The position numbers were made by a program, and so were the translations under genes. DNA of 56,329 nucleotides. It comes from a virus. Of the stretch, positions 4,927-44,904 are shown piece after piece (the stretch's first letter is position 1; the number at the start of each line of letters is the position of its first letter). The notes below the pieces were generated by a model. It was not told where the DNA came from. It ran no database searches and saw only the letters and a list, made by a program, of their open reading frames with translations. The stretch lies in IMG/VR virus record IMGVR_UViG_3300031718_000014, positions 1 to 56,329 of that record; one strand, given 5' to 3'.

Positions 4927-5273
4927 GCGACCCATCAAATCCGTTTGCCGGTCTGTTAGAGAAAATCAACTCCAGTCCAGACGATAACCAAGACGGCAAA
5001 CAGACTGGGGGCGGTGACTCCTCTCGTCCTGACAAAGTCACATGGCAGCCTGACGAAGCCTCTGAGGACTATGATGTTCGCTTATCCGATGGTTCTATTC
5101 GCCCGCAGTCTGAGTCCGCTCTGCGTTCCATGGTCATTGAGCTTCGTAAGGCCAATTTGATCGACGCTCGTCACGCTCTGATGATGCTGGACATCCCGGA
5201 CGCGGACGAGATCGCAGATGCATTGGAGAAAGAATTACAACTCAGTGCGTTGGCAAAGTTGCAGAGAAAATGA
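4923..5273 (+). CDS. Hypothetical head-region protein with a recoded 3' end
   Basis: 116 residues starting in an ATGA overlap with portal. Acidic, disordered N-terminus, then a helical C-terminus ending KELQLSALAKLQRK. The last 14 codons plus stop (5229-5273) are repeated in recoded form at 5711-5755 behind the antisense endonuclease gene. The downstream copy keeps the ATGA overlap with the next gene, so it is taken as the original 3' end and this copy as one brought in with the endonuclease. Confidence 0.85.
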   Translation: MSDPSNPFAGLLEKINSSPDDNQDGKQTGGGDSSRPDKVTWQPDEASEDYDVRLSDGSIRPQSESALRSMVIELRKANLIDARHALMMLDIPDADEIADALEKELQLSALAKLQRK

Positions 5274-5710
5274 TTCAGCAGAACTTTCCCCAAAAGGCTG
5301 CTCGTCCTTTGTCAATTGCGTCGCGTCTGTTCTTTTTGTTGTTTCCAAGAAAGAGATGTTCTGGATTCACGCAGAGCGGATTGTCGCAAGTGTGGAGCAC
5401 CAATTTGTTTTTGGGGATGGCTCCAAAATGAATAACCCAAGAAACGTGGTGTGCCCAGTGATTCCTTTTTCTGTTGGGGGCTCCCATGGCAATGAGTCCG
5501 TAGTGATCGTTCGTGGCTCCGATCCAAAACCAACAGCCCTCTGTTTTGTAAACGAACTTCCAGAACCTCTCAGCCACGGGAGTGGCGCGGCATTTATTGC
5601 TGCAAAAGTTGGCTTGGCCGTTTCTGACTTGATAAGGTTTACATTGGAAAGGGCGTTTACATCTTTTACATATTCTGGTTATTGGCATGAGCAAGTATAC
5701 TCTCTTTAGT
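5229..5710. mobile_element. HNH insertion unit carrying a replacement gene end
   Basis: A unit of 482 bp: 45 bp of recoded host-gene 3' end plus stop, then an antisense HNH endonuclease gene (5275-5688) and its leader. Removing 5229-5710 restores a continuous upstream gene whose TGA overlaps the next ATG (5752), the normal spacing in this operon. Of the 14 codons 12 specify the same residue, yet the DNA matches at only about 31 of 45 positions, mostly differing at third bases. Confidence 0.75.
5275..5688 (-). CDS. HNH homing endonuclease with N-terminal zinc finger (element 1)
   Basis: 137 residues, antisense to the head genes. N-terminus has CKRCKRPFQC and NFCSNKC, an FCS-type zinc finger likely for DNA binding. 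The C-terminal HNH_3-type core reads LHTCDNPLCVNPEHLFLGNN. Start chosen at ATG 5688, before the zinc finger. The stop abuts the stop of the upstream plus-strand gene, tail to tail, as in elements 2 and 3. Predicted to cut an allele lacking the insertion and so spread itself. Confidence 0.85.
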   Translation of the reverse strand: MPITRICKRCKRPFQCKPYQVRNGQANFCSNKCRATPVAERFWKFVYKTEGCWFWIGATNDHYGLIAMGAPNRKRNHWAHHVSWVIHFGAIPKNKLVLHTCDNPLCVNPEHLFLGNNKKNRRDAIDKGRAAFWGKFC

Positions 5711-5755
5711 AAGGAGATGCAACTGGCTGCATTGGCCAAGCTCCAACGCAAATGA
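5711..5755 (+). pseudogene. Stranded original 3' end of the 4923-5273 gene
   Basis: Reads KEMQLAALAKLQRK then TGA, in the sense of the operon, with no start of its own. It matches residues 103-116 of the gene upstream of the endonuclease. Its stop overlaps the ATG of the next gene as ATGA, the junction style of neighbouring genes, which marks it as the ancestral gene end. Confidence 0.75.
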
Positions 5756-34947: not shown

Positions 34948-36486
34948 CTATTTTTCAAGGGAAGCCCAATTATTTGCAAACGCCACATGGACTCCGATAG
35001 GAACGACCAGAGGGTAAGCCGTTTCCATGATCTCTTTGACCTCGTTCCCGGCATAGGTCTTCAGGAAGTCGTGGTCAGTCAGCTCGAACAGCAATTCGTC
35101 GTGGACTTCCAGTATGGGCTCCAACCGGAACTCACTGAAGTCCCGCCAGAACTCCAATAGCCACTGCCAGATACGAGCTTCCATGATCTTCTTCAGACAG
35201 TGAGCACTCGACTGCACTACGTGAGTAAAGCTCTGACGTTCGGCCTCCGTTTTCAGCGACTCAATGGCCGAATGGATGTTAGGCAGGTATCTGATCCGGC
35301 CAAACATGTCTTTCACGTAACCGTGACGGCGGCAGAACTCCATCTCCTTCTTCTGCCACGCACGGACACCGGAATAGATGTCCAGCCACGATTCTATCAG
35401 CCAGTCACACTCTTCGACGGTACGCGGGTCGCCACCCAGCTCCTGGTACTTGTCGAACTGAGCGGACAGACCCACCCCAGTGATGCCGTTGCAGATTCCA
35501 AACCCGGTACGTTTGGCTGGACCACGGTGCTTGTTCTTGTCTACCTTGCTGACTGGGATCTTGAATATCTCCGCTGCGGTCTCAGTATGAATATCCTTGC
35601 CCGAATGGAACATGTCGATTAACTTAGCGTCACCTGACAGGTGTGCCGTCACCCGGAGAAACCACTGATCCAAGTCGAACGTCCCTAGAACACAACCCTC
35701 CGGTGCAATGAACCCTCTGCGAATCTCCTTCCCGATCTCACTAGCCACAGGGATAGCCAACAGGTTAGGATCGTAAGCAGCGGTCTGACCGTTAGGTGAC
35801 GAAGTGAGAGAGAAGCGGGAATAGATGCGACTGTCATCGTGGACCCACGGTAGCATTCCGTCCACGTAAGTTCCTTTGAGTTTCTGCAATTCCCGATAGT
35901 CTAGGATCATGGGAACGATGGGGTGCTTCTTGCGATTGCCTTGCAGAGCTTTCTCGTCCGTGGACTCTCTCTTCCGGCTCTTTGTCATTCTGGTAGTGGT
36001 CAGGCCCAGCTTCTTGTAAAGTAGATCTGCCACCTGATCCCCGGAGTTGGGATTAATGTGCCCCATTTCAACGTGTTCCCCGACTAGGGAGTCGATCTCA
36101 CCACCCTTGATCTCCAGTAGCGCATCCAGGTACTCACCAAATTGATGGAAGTGTTGGGGATCGACCATGGTCCCATTGCGGTGCATCCGTTCGTAGTAGG
36201 GGATTACAGCGAGGTCTATCTCTTCCACTCTTCCCAGATCCAGACCACTATGTGCGCGACTAAGTTCAGGATAAATGCGACAAGTACAATCCGCATCGCG
36301 AGCAGCATAACGAACCGCCTTGTTTAACGGGATGTCGTCTAAAGTTGCGGACGGGATCGTGCCCCAAGCGGCTTCAATGTCCTTGCAACGGTCTGGGAAG
36401 TCCGCTCTAATCTTCTCCCAGATCCCTTTCGGATTTTCTGAGACAATGGCGTTTTGGATTCTTCTGGCCAGTGATTGCTTACCCAA
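34948..36486 (-). CDS. polA: DNA polymerase A, Exo III motif plus polymerase domain
   Basis: 512 residues from TTG 36486, which has GAGGTG five bases upstream. Begins with the third exonuclease motif (AVRYAARDADCT, Tyr60/Asp64), while motifs I and II lie in the upstream overlapping frame. Polymerase motif A is GTFDLDQWFLRVTAHLSGD (Asp271), the O-helix is RGPAKRTGFGICNG (Arg321, Lys325, Phe329), and motif C is EVHDELLFE (His462, Asp463, Glu464). Klenow Glu710 and Tyr766 correspond to Phe276 and Asn333 here. Phage genome replication. Confidence 0.9.
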   Translation of the reverse strand: MGKQSLARRIQNAIVSENPKGIWEKIRADFPDRCKDIEAAWGTIPSATLDDIPLNKAVRYAARDADCTCRIYPELSRAHSGLDLGRVEEIDLAVIPYYERMHRNGTMVDPQHFHQFGEYLDALLEIKGGEIDSLVGEHVEMGHINPNSGDQVADLLYKKLGLTTTRMTKSRKRESTDEKALQGNRKKHPIVPMILDYRELQKLKGTYVDGMLPWVHDDSRIYSRFSLTSSPNGQTAAYDPNLLAIPVASEIGKEIRRGFIAPEGCVLGTFDLDQWFLRVTAHLSGDAKLIDMFHSGKDIHTETAAEIFKIPVSKVDKNKHRGPAKRTGFGICNGITGVGLSAQFDKYQELGGDPRTVEECDWLIESWLDIYSGVRAWQKKEMEFCRRHGYVKDMFGRIRYLPNIHSAIESLKTEAERQSFTHVVQSSAHCLKKIMEARIWQWLLEFWRDFSEFRLEPILEVHDELLFELTDHDFLKTYAGNEVKEIMETAYPLVVPIGVHVAFANNWASLEK

Positions 36487-37481
36487 TTATGCACCTCAAT
36501 TAGCCACTGAATCTTCTTCTCTTTGTCCGCTTCCCCGATCACGTCTTCGTAATCGTCCTGAACCATCCCGCATAGCCTGCGACTGAGTGGCTTGAGTCCC
36601 TGTGGAAACAAACACAGGTGGTATGCTTTAACCATGGTGTCGGTGAACCGGAACCCCTCTATTCCCATGGAACGCAGAACGGCAATGTCGTGGAAAGCGT
36701 TGTGTAATACGACTGTGACTCCATTCCATTTTACATAGTCAGCAATAGCACTAAGCCATTCCTTGTCGCTTGCCAGAACCACGTATCCTTCTCCGATACC
36801 AAAAGTAAAACTCAATCCCCATGGTTTCTCTGCCGATCCCTCGGTGTCCATGTAGATTAGAGTAGGGTTCTTCCTGCCATGGAAGATCAAACTGAACAGT
36901 TCTCTAGAGTAATCCGTGAGTAACATGTACTGAGGATCAGGGCAAGTGTCGATCAAGTGGTCTGCACTACCAGACGCTCCCCGAACCATCCGGCAGAACG
37001 CTTGGAAGTCCGACCAGACTAGCGGAGTCATGCTAGCCGAATGGAGTCCGAACGCGGGATGGTACAGGGGCATCATGCGGAAACGGCCCTGTGACGAGAC
37101 GAACGGCAGACCGTGACTCCAGTCCATCTCCAGATCGCCCCCAAGGAAGTAACGCGCTGCGAAACGGCCTACTAGACCAATGTACTTGGGTCGGACGGTC
37201 TTCAACTCTTCGATCAGGAAGTGTTCATCCCGTCTGATCTCGTCCGGTGTGGGGTCTGGATTCCCCTTCAGGAAGTCTTTGCACAGATTAGTGCAATACA
37301 CATCGTCCCGATGGATGCCGCCTTCCAAGAGGTAACGGTCCAGTTCCTTGCCCGACTTCCCGCAGAAGGGGTAACCGCGACGGGACTCCTCTTCTCCCGC
37401 ACGTTCTCCCAAAATAAGTACATCACATGGCACGGGGCCACGTCCCCAGACGTACTTTAGTTGACTTGGTTTCGTTTCCAT
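36339..37481 (-). CDS. Uracil-DNA glycosylase fused to 3'-5' exonuclease (Exo I/II) of PolA
   Basis: 380 residues. Residues 1-165 form a family-4/5-like uracil-DNA glycosylase: GERAGEEESRRGYPFCGKSG (25-44) and LYHPAFG (139-145). Residues 205-330 hold DnaQ-like exonuclease motif I (YMDTEG, Asp212/Glu214) and II (LHNAFHD, Asn261/Asp265). Motif III is in the overlapping downstream polymerase frame, so the two frames probably make one UDG-Exo-Pol chain or a two-subunit enzyme. The last 45 residues of this frame look unnatural. A heptamer A AAG GGA at 36429-36423 lies in frame in the overlap. Confidence 0.85.
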   Translation of the reverse strand: METKPSQLKYVWGRGPVPCDVLILGERAGEEESRRGYPFCGKSGKELDRYLLEGGIHRDDVYCTNLCKDFLKGNPDPTPDEIRRDEHFLIEELKTVRPKYIGLVGRFAARYFLGGDLEMDWSHGLPFVSSQGRFRMMPLYHPAFGLHSASMTPLVWSDFQAFCRMVRGASGSADHLIDTCPDPQYMLLTDYSRELFSLIFHGRKNPTLIYMDTEGSAEKPWGLSFTFGIGEGYVVLASDKEWLSAIADYVKWNGVTVVLHNAFHDIAVLRSMGIEGFRFTDTMVKAYHLCLFPQGLKPLSRRLCGMVQDDYEDVIGEADKEKKIQWLIEVHNWVSNHWPEESKTPLSQKIRKGSGRRLERTSQTVARTLKPLGARSRPQL

Positions 37482-38873: not shown

Positions 38874-39052
38874 CAGAGCATATAGAACCAGTTACAGATC
38901 GCTCCCAGTAGCGTCTTGTGCCCGTGACAGCACTGGTACTCGGGAGTGAACGCACTAACCGGCAGACCATCCCAGTCAAAGCACCAGTGGCATCCCGGAC
39001 CGCGTAGCACCTTGCCGCGCCAATGCAAACAATCCTTCTCCCAATCGGTCAC
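38858..39052 (-). CDS. Small CxxC zinc-binding protein
   Basis: 64 residues, GTG 39052 with GGGAGA upstream. Pattern GCHWCFDWDGLPVSAFTPEY then QCCHGH is typical of small phage zinc-knuckle proteins. The C-terminus is Trp-rich. Role unknown; in the replication operon. Confidence 0.65.
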   Translation of the reverse strand: MTDWEKDCLHWRGKVLRGPGCHWCFDWDGLPVSAFTPEYQCCHGHKTLLGAICNWFYMLWWNHW

Positions 39053-39094
39053 TGTCTGGCTCTCCCTACACGTAGTCCAGTGCTTCGCACTGCC

Positions 39095-39364
39095 CTACTC
39101 ACTCTCTGCTCCCACTACTTCACGCACTCTGGCTTTGTCGTAGATTTCTCCAACTCTCTCTACCAGACTGGCAATGAACTCCCGGTCCATAGTATCTATG
39201 TGTTCGTGTTCCACGTCGTAAACCACGCAGACTAGATTCGCACACTCAGGACACTTCTCTACGGCTTCCTTCTCCAGAACGTCGGCTTTGGTAGGGATAG
39301 TGGCCAGCAGTTCGGCAATATCGTTCAGTTCGTATTCGGTCAGTTGGAAGTCCCTCATCGCCAT
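39095..39364 (-). CDS. Hypothetical acidic protein
   Basis: 89 residues, starting in overlap with the ATPase gene (ATG 39364 or 39358, both near GGAGG). Helical and acidic with one CPECANLVC unit. No recognised family; likely recombination or replication accessory. Confidence 0.65.
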   Translation of the reverse strand: MAMRDFQLTEYELNDIAELLATIPTKADVLEKEAVEKCPECANLVCVVYDVEHEHIDTMDREFIASLVERVGEIYDKARVREVVGAESE

Positions 39365-40137
39365 TGATCCTCCGTCGTGTCAGGAAACACTAACTGGCCT
39401 ATAGTGGCGAAGTTATTCAATTCCCCCTGGTAGTCCTCTCCATCTAGTTCCGGGTTCATCCCGCATGAAATCACAGTGCTATGATAACGGTCCGGTATAG
39501 GTTCCTTGTCATCTACCCAGTGTTGCACCACTAAATCACATTCATAGACCATCTTGCCCCAACCCTCCAGCACCATCTCTCCGGTAGGCTCGCTCTTCTT
39601 AGTCTCTTTGATGTACTGGTATTCCCGCTTCATCCTGTGTGTGAACACGACATTAGCATTGCTGTTACGAGCTAGATCGACCCACATCTTCATCTCCCGG
39701 TTGACCGGACCGTATTCGCGTTCCAGCACTTTCTCAGTCCGTCCGAAGCTGGCTAGGCGAGCAATCTCGTACAGTTCCGCTGCTCCGTCTACTGCTACGG
39801 TGCGAGCCTCGCCAAGAGCTTGAATGTAGTCAGTCCGCATCTGTTGCAATTGAGCGTCTGCAGCTTCTGATACTTCCTTGGCGGAGTTCCCGTTCGACCG
39901 GATGCCTGTGAACGCTTTGCGGTAGCGTGCCACGTAGATTTCCTTTTCCTTCTGGAAGCCCTTAATGGCCCGGTGAATCCCGTCGTCAATGTCGATCACA
40001 GCAATGGGCGGCGGCCCGGTCAAGTACCAGTGGGTCTTGCCACACTTCTGCATGGCTTGGGTGCAAACGATTAGGCGGGCCGGAATGTCAATGCCAGCCC
40101 GGATAAAACCGCTCTCACTACGTTTCTGTGACGCCAC
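39355..40137 (-). CDS. Sak4-like recombination ATPase
   Basis: 260 residues from GTG 40137, chosen for GGGAG seven bases upstream. A P-loop is at CTQAMQKCGKTHW, then a Walker B-type IAVIDIDDG region and VDGAAELYEIARL, followed by NVVFTHRMKREYQYI, as in phage AAA_24/Sak4 RecA-like single-strand annealing proteins. Neighbouring PD-(D/E)XK nuclease supports a recombination pair. The first P-loop Gly is replaced. Confidence 0.7.
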   Translation of the reverse strand: MASQKRSESGFIRAGIDIPARLIVCTQAMQKCGKTHWYLTGPPPIAVIDIDDGIHRAIKGFQKEKEIYVARYRKAFTGIRSNGNSAKEVSEAADAQLQQMRTDYIQALGEARTVAVDGAAELYEIARLASFGRTEKVLEREYGPVNREMKMWVDLARNSNANVVFTHRMKREYQYIKETKKSEPTGEMVLEGWGKMVYECDLVVQHWVDDKEPIPDRYHSTVISCGMNPELDGEDYQGELNNFATIGQLVFPDTTEDQWR

Positions 40138-40279
40138 GTCGTATCTCCCGTCTGGACATCCACCGTTGCCCACAGCCGCAATAACACAGGTGTTTTCCCC
40201 TGTGTCCGTGATTCAGACAGCATCTGTATTCTAGTGTGCCGCGATCTCTCACGGCCTTGCATTTACGTTTTGGTGCCAC
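40118..40279 (-). CDS. Small zinc-binding protein in the recombination operon
   Basis: 53 residues from GTG 40279, with GGAG seven bases upstream. CKAVRDRGTLEYRCCLNHGH then HLCYCGCGQRW has five or more possible zinc ligands and shares the Cx..GHxGxH style with the 31975 gene. Overlaps the nuclease end by 17 bases and the ATPase start by 20. Confidence 0.6.
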   Translation of the reverse strand: MAPKRKCKAVRDRGTLEYRCCLNHGHRGKHLCYCGCGQRWMSRREIRRGVTET

Positions 40280-40871
40280 TACGTTTCTCCTTCTCCATCG
40301 CTCGGGCATTGGCAGTGATTAACCGCCAGTTGTCTTCTAGTTCCCTGTCAGTGAACTCCACATCGAACTGCTTTACCTGAGGTCCGCTGTCCGCGTAGTT
40401 CCCGTTCACGAAGAACACTCGCAGACTCACCCGGTTGAGTTTCATCATCCAGCAGTACGCTTTGACCTGGACAAACCACGACCAGAAGTCCGTCTCTATG
40501 CTACGGCGGCTGGACCTCCAAGTGGCTTTGGTCTCGTCTATCGCCATCCCGGTTAGCTCCAGTCCATCCGGTGTCCCCACTATCCCATCCAACTCAATCT
40601 CCCCGGTACGAACGTATTCCCCACCGAAGATAGGGGTAAGAGACTGGGCGAGTAAGTCTTCCCATGCGTACCCAACGCTCACGTAGTTCCCCATGCGCTT
40701 CTTCTCGTTAGGGGAAAGGTCCTCGTAAGGCTTCCTCTGACCACGATGTATCACTCGATTGTCCACCCAACGCAAAATCTCACTTATGTGAACTTTGTCA
40801 GTTGAACGATCCCCTCTTCGTCCAGAAAGAACAAGGGGGTCTAGTTCAATTAGTCGTTCGACTATTTTCAT
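40263..40871 (-). CDS. PD-(D/E)XK nuclease (Cas4/RecB-like) with recoded N-terminus
   Basis: 202 residues from ATG 40871. The catalytic set appears as GIVGTPDGLELTG (Asp) and AIDETKATW (Glu-x-Lys), as in phage Cas4/RecB-type exonucleases that pair with annealing proteins. The first 31 codons are a recoded copy of the codons that now start the upstream endonuclease gene (41388-41296). The start overlaps the end of that endonuclease by 26 bases. Confidence 0.85.
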   Translation of the reverse strand: MKIVERLIELDPLVLSGRRGDRSTDKVHISEILRWVDNRVIHRGQRKPYEDLSPNEKKRMGNYVSVGYAWEDLLAQSLTPIFGGEYVRTGEIELDGIVGTPDGLELTGMAIDETKATWRSSRRSIETDFWSWFVQVKAYCWMMKLNRVSLRVFFVNGNYADSGPQVKQFDVEFTDRELEDNWRLITANARAMEKEKRSGTKT

Positions 40872-41295
40872 GCGGACAAACTCCACCGTTATATTCCATT
40901 CCACAGTTACAGTTGTAACAACGAGGCTCGAAACCATCAGGGAATCCGTTGTTTTTCAACCATTGGTATATGTCCTTCTTTATCTGTCTGCGGTGTTCAG
41001 CTCCATCATTGTTGATGTGATGAATCGTTAAGAAACCAAACTCAGTTTCTCCACAACAAGCACAGACCCCACCATAGTGTTCAATTACTAGTTTGCGGAG
41101 TCTCTTTCTATAGTTTCTAGAAAGACGATTGACAATCTCGCGGTGTGTTACCTGATACTCCTTACGATGCACCTGCTGCCACGCTAAGTAATACTCCTTG
41201 TGTTTCGCTCTCCATTGCCGCGCTAATTCGGCATGTCTTCCAGGATGTTCCTTTCTCCACTTTCTTGAGCGCTCCCTTTCTTTTTCTCTCGCTGC
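40779..41295 (-). mobile_element. HNH insertion unit carrying a replacement gene start
   Basis: 517 bp: the endonuclease body followed by a recoded 93-bp copy of the host gene's first 31 codons. It lies between the original 31 codons (41388-41296) and the nuclease body. Both copies end in AGT GAG. 21 of 31 residues agree, but only about 57 of 93 bases. Deleting the unit restores one uninterrupted nuclease gene five bases after the preceding stop. Confidence 0.75.
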
Positions 41296-41388
41296 CTCAC
41301 TTACATGCAGCTTGTCTGTAGAGCGGTCCACACGACTGCGAGACATGACTAACGGGTCTAAATCGATGGACCGCTCTACGAGACGCAT
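40846..41388 (-). CDS. HNH homing endonuclease fused to a captured host N-terminus (element 5)
   Basis: 180 residues. The first 31 (MRLVERSIDLDPLV through STDKLHVSE) belong to the PD-(D/E)XK nuclease, whose present gene start is a recoded duplicate. Then a basic helical linker (REKERERSRKWRKEHPGRHA) and the HNH core CACCGE, FLTIHHINNDGAEH and PRCYNCNCGMEYNGGVCPH. Same subfamily as element 2. It is thus driven by the host gene's own translation signals. Confidence 0.9.
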   Translation of the reverse strand: MRLVERSIDLDPLVMSRSRVDRSTDKLHVSEAAREKERERSRKWRKEHPGRHAELARQWRAKHKEYYLAWQQVHRKEYQVTHREIVNRLSRNYRKRLRKLVIEHYGGVCACCGETEFGFLTIHHINNDGAEHRRQIKKDIYQWLKNNGFPDGFEPRCYNCNCGMEYNGGVCPHENSRTTN

Positions 41389-41393
41389 TGCGA

Positions 41394-42257
41394 TCACTCT
41401 GCCGCTGTAATGAACTCGCCGTCGATCACCCACGGCGCATCAGCCTGTTCCAGAAAATCGTTCTGAACCACGTACTTGATTAGTTCCTTCCTGTGCGTGG
41501 CCTTGGGAGCGGCTTGGAACGCAGCCATTCCCAGCCGCTTGACTTCGATGGGACCATCTGCCTTGGCCAGTGCAGCGACCACGGCTTCAATGGCTTCAGT
41601 ATTCAACTCGTCCGTATCTCCGTTGCTAGAAGGGGATGCAGCGGTCGCAGTAGTCGTTCTCGCACCAGCCGAACTCGCCGCACGAGACGCACCAACGGAT
41701 GACGCTTTTCCCTTTCCCCTTGCTTCCCATGGGAGTGAATGGATCTTGGTGAACACTCCAATGGGCTTGTTCCCTCCCTCCAGTCCTTCCCTCTTCTTCT
41801 TCGGTGCAATCGCGTTCATGTGACCCCGGAGTCCCACCGCAGTCTGAAACCCTTCATCCCGCAGCTTGTCTTCTGGGAACCCTTGATCGACCAGGGCTCC
41901 GAGAAATAGGTAGGCATTGCAGCTATTATTCAGCCCAGTCGCGCTGCTTCCCTCTGCCGGGTAGAAGCACGCTCCGTCGTCAGACGGAACGATCTTACTC
42001 AGATCGCCAGCGGAGTAGTATTGCTCGTGTTCAGTCCCATCGTCGTCCTTCAATTTAACCAGAAGGAACGCGCTGGGTTCCTGACTGCCGTTATAGTCCC
42101 ACGTGGTCGCGGTCATCTCCATGATGGTGGTGTCCACGTTGTCCGGTGCGCCGCCGCCTGAGACTGCGTCTGACGGTGCAACACTGATCGGTTTGCGGTC
42201 CTTACTGCCTGAGCCCGACTTCCCTTTCACAACGCTTGGCTTGCCAAGTGGCGACAT
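41394..42257 (-). CDS. Replication-operon protein, possibly ssDNA-binding
   Basis: 287 residues. Residues 40-165 are beta-rich (SAFLLVKLKDDDGTEHEQYY), followed by an Ala/Ser/Thr-rich linker (185-215) and a C-terminal winged-helix-like part (KELIKYVVQNDFLEQAD). Place between helicase and nuclease suggests a single-strand-binding or annealing partner, but no fold is certain. Confidence 0.65.
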   Translation of the reverse strand: MSPLGKPSVVKGKSGSGSKDRKPISVAPSDAVSGGGAPDNVDTTIMEMTATTWDYNGSQEPSAFLLVKLKDDDGTEHEQYYSAGDLSKIVPSDDGACFYPAEGSSATGLNNSCNAYLFLGALVDQGFPEDKLRDEGFQTAVGLRGHMNAIAPKKKREGLEGGNKPIGVFTKIHSLPWEARGKGKASSVGASRAASSAGARTTTATAASPSSNGDTDELNTEAIEAVVAALAKADGPIEVKRLGMAAFQAAPKATHRKELIKYVVQNDFLEQADAPWVIDGEFITAAE

Positions 42258-42287
42258 ATTGGTGGTTCCTCTCTTTTGTTTTGAATT

Positions 42288-44750
42288 TTACTTCTCTAAG
42301 GGTTTGGGTATTACTTTACAAATCTCGACTGCTTCAGCAAACCACTTCGGAGCGAACTTCTTGAACTTAGGCCAGAACCACTCAAAGTGGTCGTCAACCA
42401 CTAAGACCTCCGACCAGTCGTCCTCGCTCCTAGTACTTCTCCCTGCCATCTGAACGATCTCCTGCATCGCTTGGTACATAGGATAGTCTCTGTCCCGGTC
42501 GCTGCGAGCCTTGGTGACTAAGTCTCTAGTGTCTGGGAACGGGACTTTGCACAATATCTGCCAGCGACACTCGGAGTCTGGAAAATCAAACCCGGTACTA
42601 ACGCTCGGGCTCACGAGTATGGCCGGGGCTTTGGTCCCTTTAAATCTTCGTATGGTGTCTTGGGAGGACTCTCGTGTGTGGACGAGCATATGCTCTGCGA
42701 ACTCGCTGTTTCTAGCGATCCACTGCGCTCTTTGATAGGAAACAGCGTGGATAATTCCCTTCCCTTGTAGTCTGGGCCTGACGATAGCGTCGATCTTCGA
42801 TATCCAGGCTCGTAAGTGCCCCGGTGTGGCTCGCTTGTCCATGCGTACACTAGGGACAAAATAGACAGGACGCCTACCCACTGGAAAGCTGGAAGGGTAC
42901 TCCCGAAAGTCCACATCGCCATGACCAATACCCAGAAGTTCAAGAGTCTTCGGACGAATCGTGGCGGAGGTAAGAACGACTCTCTTAATCCCACAGAACA
43001 GCCTCCTTTCGGCATAGTCGGCAGGCCACACCGGATCGAAGCGGGCTACTAGGCTCCCGCTGGGTCCTCGCCGCGTCACTTGAAAGACCCAGTCTCCCTG
43101 AGCGGACGATAACTGCGCCAGTTTCCGCTCAAGTTTCTTGAGATGCTTCGCTTGATGCACGGCCCACCGACTGTCGCCGTTATTAGCCAAACCGCCCTTT
43201 ACAGCCGCCTCAAGGTCTTCTCGCTGCGACCGGGCACGGTCCAGCCAAACTCTTGCCGTCAACTTCCATGGTTCAAAGTTAATTAGTTCGGGGAAACGGT
43301 CCTCGTCTACTAACTCCAAGTCGCTAGGGAATAGTTCTACTGCCAGATAGTTACTAAGTTGGTCCAGCGCATCGTGAGCCTCGTCTAGTACCAGCATCCC
43401 GAACGCACCGAGACCGCCGCCGTGTTCCATTTGGTGCATCCAATAGGAGTAGTTGGTAGAGACTAGAGTAACTTGTCTGGCCAACTTCACACGGTCGAAG
43501 TAGACGCAGCCGCTTTCCTTCAACTCGCAGCGAACTCCACCGTGGCACGGTCCTTCGTCGCACTTGATCTCGTCCGCAAAGTCTGTTTGAACATCACGCA
43601 GAGTGATAGTCCGACCGTTCGCTTTGTACAGGCAGGGGTAATTGTTCTGACCACGAACGTCCAATAGACCGCTATCCCCAAAGTCCTTCTCCAACTGATT
43701 CTGCAACCCTCTGGTACTGGTCAGGAATGCGGTACGTTCCCCAGACAATTGCGCCGCTGCCAGATAAGCCAGTGATTTGCCGGAGTTATGCACCACCATT
43801 CCGTTTGCGACAAAGTTTTCGTGCGGTTCACAAGCTATTAGGTCGTATACCTCTTCACTTATTTGCGCTCTCTTGACCCACGATACACGAACCTCTTTAG
43901 GTATCCCTTGATGGAAACTGGTGTGATCTCCATGTAATTTCTGGTGAGCCTCGTGCGTAAGAACCTGCAAGTTATCCAAGTCGTTGTGCGAGCTATCTTC
44001 ATCTCGATGGTGGACGGCAAAAATCTCTGGATCAAGGAATGTTAGTCCTTTTGTATTTCCCCTTCGGCAAACTTCTATGAACTCGTCTATGAATAAGCCG
44101 TTAAGGTTTGCTTCGACAACGATGCAGTGATAAGGAACGCGGTACAACCTGCCTTCCACATGGTTTCCTCTGTGTCTATAAGAACCGGAGTTTCCAGCGT
44201 AGGGATGGTTTTTTAATCCTTGAATTTGTCGATACTGTGCTTTGTGGTGCTTCTTTCCGTTTGATCGCGGTCTTGGTGTATCGCAGATCACTTCATCTGT
44301 GGAGACCAAATCCTCAATGCAAACAAAGCCTCGTGACGTGAGAACCTGATGATCGGGAGTTGCTCGCAATGACTTACCATCACGCAGGGTTAAAAGGACA
44401 GTTTCGCGCCGTCCTGAATAACCTACAGATGAAAATTCGTGAAGTCTTATCTCTTTGCCGTCGAAGCTTCGCGTAAAGGGAAGAATGCCTCTAGCTCTGC
44501 GATTGATATGGTTCTGTTGACAATAAAATTCCTGTTCAATTGTTCGCTGAATACTATTCTTCGCCCGATTCACTTGGACGATAGTGTCCCCAACCACACA
44601 GCCGGTTGGGAGTGCCAGCACCACAAACCGCTTGGTACTCTCAACCGCCCGTAGCGCAGCGTCCTCTTGCCCTGGTCGCCATGACTCAAAGCGTTCTGGC
44701 AGTCCCAACCCACTGGGCTCTGGGAGTATTCCGATGGAACTAACTGGCAA
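42288..44750 (-). CDS. DinG/XPD-like superfamily 2 helicase with intein
   Basis: 820-residue precursor from TTG 44750 (AGGAG upstream); a GTG at 44891 would read the zinc-finger gene in the wrong frame. The Walker A motif is split: ALPTG, intein, SGKSLAY. After removal the helicase is about 548 residues. Motif II is LVLDEAHDAL. Four Cys (KCDEGPCHGGVRCELKESGC) match the XPD iron-sulphur domain. Late motifs VLTSATI and QMAGRSTR are present. 5'-3' DNA helicase for replication or repair. Confidence 0.9.
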   Translation of the reverse strand: MPVSSIGILPEPSGLGLPERFESWRPGQEDAALRAVESTKRFVVLALPTGCVVGDTIVQVNRAKNSIQRTIEQEFYCQQNHINRRARGILPFTRSFDGKEIRLHEFSSVGYSGRRETVLLTLRDGKSLRATPDHQVLTSRGFVCIEDLVSTDEVICDTPRPRSNGKKHHKAQYRQIQGLKNHPYAGNSGSYRHRGNHVEGRLYRVPYHCIVVEANLNGLFIDEFIEVCRRGNTKGLTFLDPEIFAVHHRDEDSSHNDLDNLQVLTHEAHQKLHGDHTSFHQGIPKEVRVSWVKRAQISEEVYDLIACEPHENFVANGMVVHNSGKSLAYLAAAQLSGERTAFLTSTRGLQNQLEKDFGDSGLLDVRGQNNYPCLYKANGRTITLRDVQTDFADEIKCDEGPCHGGVRCELKESGCVYFDRVKLARQVTLVSTNYSYWMHQMEHGGGLGAFGMLVLDEAHDALDQLSNYLAVELFPSDLELVDEDRFPELINFEPWKLTARVWLDRARSQREDLEAAVKGGLANNGDSRWAVHQAKHLKKLERKLAQLSSAQGDWVFQVTRRGPSGSLVARFDPVWPADYAERRLFCGIKRVVLTSATIRPKTLELLGIGHGDVDFREYPSSFPVGRRPVYFVPSVRMDKRATPGHLRAWISKIDAIVRPRLQGKGIIHAVSYQRAQWIARNSEFAEHMLVHTRESSQDTIRRFKGTKAPAILVSPSVSTGFDFPDSECRWQILCKVPFPDTRDLVTKARSDRDRDYPMYQAMQEIVQMAGRSTRSEDDWSEVLVVDDHFEWFWPKFKKFAPKWFAEAVEICKVIPKPLEK
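43785..44600 (-). mobile_element. HNH-containing intein in the helicase P-loop
   Basis: 272 residues. Begins with Cys (CVVGDTIVQVN), block-B-like TLRDGKSLRATPDHQVLT, and ends NGMVVHN followed by Ser as the +1 nucleophile. The centre has an HNH endonuclease (EIFAVHHRDEDSSHNDLDNL). Insertion is between TG and SGKS of the Walker A loop, so the helicase cannot bind ATP until splicing. Confidence 0.9.
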
Positions 44751-44904
44751 CTTGTGTTTGCTCCTGTGGCTTTGGTGTTCCACTGCCTTTGCATCGGTGG
44801 TGCGTTCGCTTGTTCCTGTGATCCACAATGGTTCCGTCCGACCACAGACGTACCAGTCTGCCGCACACGTCGCAGGGTATTCGGATCTCACTTTGAGTTT
44901 TCAT
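44740..44904 (-). CDS. Small zinc-finger protein
   Basis: 54 residues, ATG overlapping the previous TAA, with GGAGACGGAG upstream. PCDVCGRLVRLWSDGTIVDH followed by THHRCKGSG is a CxxC...H...C zinc finger common in phages. The TAG lies inside the helicase start region, so translation is probably coupled. Confidence 0.7.
   Translation of the reverse strand: MKTQSEIRIPCDVCGRLVRLWSDGTIVDHRNKRTHHRCKGSGTPKPQEQTQVAS

Follow-up and report, generated by a model that had tools for sequence, protein, structure and literature searches.

An HNH endonuclease gene that appears to have captured the 5′ end of a phage nuclease gene and to supply a diverged replacement

The window analysed here is the whole of IMG/VR record IMGVR_UViG_3300031718_000014, one strand of 56,329 nt from a metagenomic, uncultured phage. 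Two of its genes, one coding for an HNH endonuclease and the other for a second nuclease, begin with related sequences. The features of this locus are as follows:

40846..41388, minus strand: HNH endonuclease gene, 180 aa, starting MRLVERSIDLDPLVMSRSRVDRSTDKLHVSE, assigned by phrog_2255 match and family alignment
40263..40871, minus strand: nuclease gene, 202 aa, starting MKIVERLIELDPLVLSGRRGDRSTDKVHISE, chimeric (replacement start and native remainder)
41296..41388, minus strand: native nuclease 5′ end (codons 1–31), now the HNH N-terminus, ~90% nucleotide identity to relatives L001 and L002
40779..40871, minus strand: putative element-borne replacement of nuclease codons 1–31, MKIVERLIELDPLVLSGRRGDRSTDKVHISE, sharing 56–62 of 93 nt with the native copies
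40773..41295, minus strand: putative inserted element of ~523 bp, comprising the HNH gene from codon 32 through its stop and replacement nuclease codons 1–33, boundaries from comparison with L001 and L002
41394..42257, minus strand: upstream gene, intact, matching L001 and L002 on the upstream side of the insertion
40880..40886, minus strand: GGTGGAG, Shine-Dalgarno-like and putatively functional, upstream of the nuclease ATG, position within a base or two

The first 31 codons of the HNH gene (HNH N31, 41388–41296) and those of the nuclease gene (nuclease N31, 40871–40779) agree at 21 of 31 residues and 57 of 93 bases, and both copies close with AGTGAG; a first-pass annotation had given the same coordinates and counts, and our recalculation found them right. 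At the first, second and third codon positions, 20, 28 and 9 of 31 agree, and in register they are identical over at most 8 bases, TAAGTGAG at the junction. Local alignment of the two starts scored 112, compared with a best score of 62 in 2000 shuffles. The pair also stood out in a six-frame protein-level scan of the whole window for direct repeats 300–2600 nt apart, scoring 114 where unrelated pairs scored at most 51 outside a low-complexity region at 19–27 kb.

The first-pass annotation had read this pair as capture of the nuclease N-terminus by the HNH gene, and had proposed a search for relatives with an uninterrupted nuclease whose start resembles the DNA of 41388–41296. Two nuclease relatives of this kind were found in IMG/VR, contigs L001 and L002, in both of which the gene is uninterrupted, begins with MRLVERFIDLDPLVMSRSRVDRSTDK(L/I)HVSEVIRWV and is not accompanied by the HNH gene. 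By blastn, the relatives' nuclease starts showed 90.3% and 90.2% identity to the window HNH start; that of the window nuclease itself gave no significant match to them. At the three codon positions, HNH N31 agreed with the two relatives at 31/30/23 and 30/30/23 of 31, nuclease N31 agreed with them at 20/29/13 and 20/29/7, and the relatives agreed with each other over nuclease codons 1–31 at 30/31/21. From codon 34 the window nuclease is native, with 150/159/100 and 148/160/110 of 162 positions in agreement with the relatives. This remainder showed 81–84% identity to them by blastn, and the whole nuclease protein 88 and 87% amino acid identity to L001 and L002, respectively. Since the relatives' starts match the HNH start and not the nuclease's own start, capture of the native 5′ end of the nuclease gene by the HNH gene is well supported. 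The annotation had named one finding as evidence to the contrary, the same N-terminus on HNH proteins encoded at unrelated loci; it appeared neither in 80 HNH relatives nor in degenerate motif scans. The evidence comes from three metagenomic sequences, the window and its two relatives. Alignment-based searches for more distant nuclease relatives in IMG/VR and GTDB genomes returned the same two contigs or none, no nuclease relative was present in 50,697 phage records, and a search with neighbouring genes led to a contig (L088) that stops short of the nuclease position.

Two related starts would also result if the nuclease 5′ end had first undergone local tandem duplication and the HNH gene had arrived later between the copies; only a duplication is seen directly, and one genome cannot give the order of events. 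Duplication within the lineage would, however, leave both copies resembling the relatives, whereas the left copy differs from the relatives no more than they differ among themselves and the right copy has lost all synonymous similarity and differs in GC3. In addition, the HNH start shares a single reading frame with the left copy, the right ATG overlaps the conserved CPH codons of the HNH gene, and both known HNH-free relatives have a single copy. We regard this course of events as improbable.

At the left junction, CATGTAAGTGAG is followed by HNH codon 32, while at the right junction CACATAAGTGAG ATTTTG is followed by CGTTGGGTGG, where identity with L002 resumes. Insertion after codon 31, as annotated at first, agrees with the left junction; the replaced stretch probably reaches codon 33. 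The region containing the upstream gene (41394–42257) showed 85.6–88.9% identity to L001 and L002 by blastn. This gene and the nuclease remainder thus match the same two relatives, and therefore both flanks come from one lineage. As the window is a metagenomic virus record, an assembly chimera of two phage populations has to be considered, but the match of the same two relatives to both flanks and the preservation of all reading frames across both junctions make it very improbable. Capture, replacement and junctions are all evident from the comparison with the uninterrupted relatives.

The location inside a gene and the HNH core are typical of group I introns and inteins, and an intein is present in the upstream helicase gene. 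A self-splicing element after codon 31, either a group I intron or an intein, was therefore weighed, its removal restoring the native nuclease and leaving the second start as mere decoration. However, Rfam gave no match at E ≤ 1 in 39000–43000, and hence no known type of intron. Almost the entire ~523 bp insert codes for protein, and after the stop that closes the HNH frame the coding sequence goes on in a different frame. The protein sequence of the second start is conserved while its third positions are saturated; it is therefore in use. Such splicing is in our view hardly credible.

The HNH protein consists of the captured nuclease N-terminus (codons 1–31), a basic repeat region, a CxxC...HH...CYNC zinc/HNH core and a C-terminal GGVCPH. 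Its residues 55–166 matched the phrog_2255 HNH endonuclease in a profile search (E = 1.2e-7), and CACCGETE, HH, CYNC and CPH are conserved in the HNH family alignment. Immediately before the first catalytic His, the window HNH has His (TIHH) where every other aligned HNH has Asp (TIDH), so that HNH activity is not assured; His-His is present in colicin-type HNH nucleases. As expected of a free-standing homing endonuclease gene, the HNH gene occupies a site that carries no such gene in the close relatives L001 and L002. No genome with the same HNH in another target allele was found, and scanning GTDB with the HNH as query yielded no relatives. HNH relatives on unrelated contigs (L036, L038, L043, L052, L056, L057, L069, L075, L076 and L079) have C-terminal '(C)NDHP...VGPSGPKRS' and N-terminal 'TIPSQ' motifs in common. 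Because many HNH relatives have tails in common, tRNA sites were suspected, an idea that was dropped when ARAGORN found no tRNA in 15 loci.

The nuclease carries the motif GTPDG...DETK...QVKAY, which together with a weak profile match suggests a PD-(D/E)XK / Cas4-like enzyme: the relatives' copies weakly matched phrog_1706, 'CRISPR/Cas system associated' (E = 0.016–0.023). A Pfam search with the nuclease gave no match, a profile search against PDB was insignificant, and the structure model had a pLDDT of 39.5 and was unusable.

The nuclease ATG lies within the HNH codons CCG CAT GAA (CPHE), overlapping the conserved CPH motif, and GGTGGAG inside the codons of the conserved NGGVCPH of the HNH is a plausible ribosome-binding site for the nuclease. 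No ATG, GTG or TTG occurs in the HNH frame from codon 31 to codon 73, so full-length HNH needs the captured start, from which it would be expressed. The original 5′ end had been thought to provide the element's own expression signal and N-terminus; the comparison bears this out for the start codon and N-terminus only, since the bases immediately 5′ of the ATG are unlike those of the relatives. The HNH ribosome-binding site in the window is weak and not common to the relatives. In these, the nuclease start is preceded by GAGG and by a 91-aa gene, both missing from the window. The 91-aa gene stands just upstream of the nuclease in each (L001:4721-4996 and L002:4721-4996).

The GC3 of nuclease N31 is 8/31, compared with 115/169 for the remaining codons (p = 1.5e-5); the values elsewhere are 18/31 in HNH N31, 17/31 in the relatives' starts and 62/149 in the HNH body. 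HNH N31 and nuclease N31 have the same codon at 5 of 20 shared degenerate residues, where 6.9 would be expected from independent choice, and the captured start and the relatives have the same codon at 20 of 27–28. Nucleotide identity to the native copies is 90% for the captured start, as against ~60–67% for the replacement copy. Second positions are alike at 28 of 31 but synonymous similarity is gone, so we take the replacement copy to be old or foreign and conserved as protein. The first-pass description of a 'recoded' nuclease start was accurate in that a diverged replacement copy is present; in the sense of selected recoding it would go beyond the evidence, since the copy may stem from a diverged homologue. 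The divergence may have been selected, or may be due to mere age or foreign origin.

Based on these observations, we consider it likely that a free-standing phage HNH homing endonuclease gene inserted after nuclease codon 31, with a captured native start, a diverged replacement start and mobility by homing. Alternatively, the source may have been a related phage with a free-standing HNH gene immediately before a long-diverged nuclease; a single recombination would have brought in the HNH gene and the first ~33 codons, the left end being joined to native codon 31 in frame by chance. Both readings agree on capture and replacement and differ on origin and on whether there is a stable mobile element. 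Agreement at 21/31 residues with saturated synonymous sites fits a distant orthologue, free-standing HNH genes are common between phage genes (e.g. nrdA/nrdB, Stenotrophomonas phage ANB28), and the TAAGTGAG shared at the junction could be microhomology. In-frame fusion needs luck, however, and a similar arrangement on another contig, L040, argues for a repeated process. Nor did two degenerate IMG/VR motif scans reveal a donor-type nuclease or other donor of the replacement start: they gave two native-type relatives and one chance match, L091, which was rejected as a donor-type nuclease, the match not lying in a coding frame of that kind. We would place this recombination somewhat short of an even chance.

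We propose that the likely homing HNH element would work as follows. To the left of the insert, the native nuclease start and 31 codons lead in frame into the HNH gene and give it a start codon and an N-terminus. To the right, a diverged copy of those codons joins the native nuclease gene near codon 34, so that the nuclease stays intact. The HNH enzyme would cut alleles lacking the homing endonuclease gene near codons 31–34, and repair from a genome bearing it, with native flanks on both sides as homology, would copy in the whole element. The diverged copy would keep the target gene working and would no longer hold the native cut site. It would also be too unlike the 5′ copy to recombine with it and delete the element; their longest in-register identity of only 8 bases would likewise discourage loss by recombination. 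Cutting, homing and protection from re-cutting are here inferred.

A flanking-duplication screen of 80 HNH relatives and 11 phage records gave one convincing further case, on L040. At L040:3340-4580, a phrog_2255 HNH gene (E = 5.9e-8) has an orphan VIKYISDLKRRFDHIKI on one side and, on the other, a 196-aa gene with the start MIKYIGDLKRRYDHIKV; this gene is located between a terminase and a portal-like gene. The two starts, 17 codons long, agree at 13/17 residues, 32/51 nt and 5/17 third positions. This HNH gene has its own start and ribosome-binding site, and the orphan is not fused to it. No relatives of the L040 target gene were found, and because of this its native and replacement copies are not polarised. 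The other candidates in the screen were discarded: L043 has a second HNH-type C-terminus upstream, L103 holds whole-gene paralogues and the remainder were of low complexity. Within the window, at 5229–5755, an antisense HNH_3 gene is flanked by two forms of the final 14 codons of a gene, ELQLSALAKLQRK and EMQLAALAKLQRK, which agree at 12/14 including the stop and at 29/42 nt. The mirror-image 3′ case annotated here is thus a real duplication, and the only relative found for it, at 51% identity, is too distant to indicate the native copy. Of the 'general strategy' that had been suggested, one further clear 5′ case, L040, speaks in favour, and the 3′ case at 5229–5755 is not polarised. We would suggest, tentatively and as a somewhat unlikely generalisation, that a class of phage homing endonucleases targets gene ends as natural home-and-rescue drives, cutting just inside a gene end, carrying a synonymously rewritten, cut-proof end and using the displaced native end to express the enzyme. 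If so, enzyme expression would depend on insertion at the right place.

The closest known counterparts are the mORFs of fungal mitochondria, described in Allomyces atp6, Rhizopus atp9, Mortierella cox2 and Glomus atp6, atp9, cox2 and nad3 (PMC3630166). As in the window element, the endonuclease ORF lies inside a gene and brings a foreign, strongly diverged version of the gene's terminus in place of the native one, and in Glomus the displaced native terminus is 91–98% identical to a relative and the inserted terminus 64–81% (PMC3630166). The same pattern was found in the window, where the displaced terminus is near the relatives and the inserted terminus is diverged with its protein conserved (second positions 28–29/31). 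mORFs, however, concern the 3′ end, LAGLIDADG or GIY-YIG enzymes and mitochondria (PMC3630166). In the phage studied here an HNH enzyme has displaced a 5′ end and uses it as its own N-terminus, and hence the element works like a fungal mORF without being a member of that group.

Mitochondrial introns of Tremella with N-terminal duplications are also similar, in that the insertion brings an N-terminal fragment resembling the host gene; the nad4 fragments are 72.5–81% like the host gene part at the amino acid level, and fragment exchange through element mobility was proposed by the authors (PMC7315562). These are predicted mitochondrial introns, two nad4 ones being ~2.1–2.2 kb and one confirmed as spliced (PMC7315562), whereas the phage insert is ~523 bp and intron-less. 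The free-standing homing endonucleases of T4-like phages (mob, seg) resemble the window HNH as intron-less phage genes that often overlap their neighbours, and mobE and mobA insert into genes of other phages (PMC2988022). Unlike the window element, T4-like insertions split the gene into two polypeptides that need reassembly, and a text search of that review for duplication returned nothing (PMC2988022). HomeR, a home-and-rescue drive of Drosophila, shares the logic of a nuclease homing into a gene with a recoded rescue; it is an engineered Cas9 system, and the resemblance is one of logic only (PMC7968924). In the part of the phage homing literature covered, only split genes and intergenic insertions were found and no report of terminus replacement, an absence that is weak evidence. 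Our verdict is that the sequence comparison confirms the capture and the replacement start, with homing as the likely means of movement, that the principle is known from organelles and that the window presents a new phage variant of it.

An intron-less, non-splicing endonuclease gene could thus settle in coding sequence by bringing a replacement for the piece that it displaces, and a phenomenon of fungal mitochondria would be extended to phages, where cleavage assays and co-infection can test it. For annotation, the N-terminus of an HNH protein may be borrowed from a neighbouring gene, and the first codons of a phage gene may have another history than the rest.

Two observations were made on nearby genes. 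The helicase gene of the window (42288–44891) has an intein at the P-loop (LPTG/SGKS), that of L001 (L001:1305-3833) an apparent intein at a different site and that of L002 (L002:1573-3336) none, giving three states in three related phages. Lastly, the overlapping frames 36339–37481 and 34948–36486 (window 34948–37481) match successive parts of the DNA polymerase profile phrog_17, and the window DNA polymerase may be split or frameshifted.
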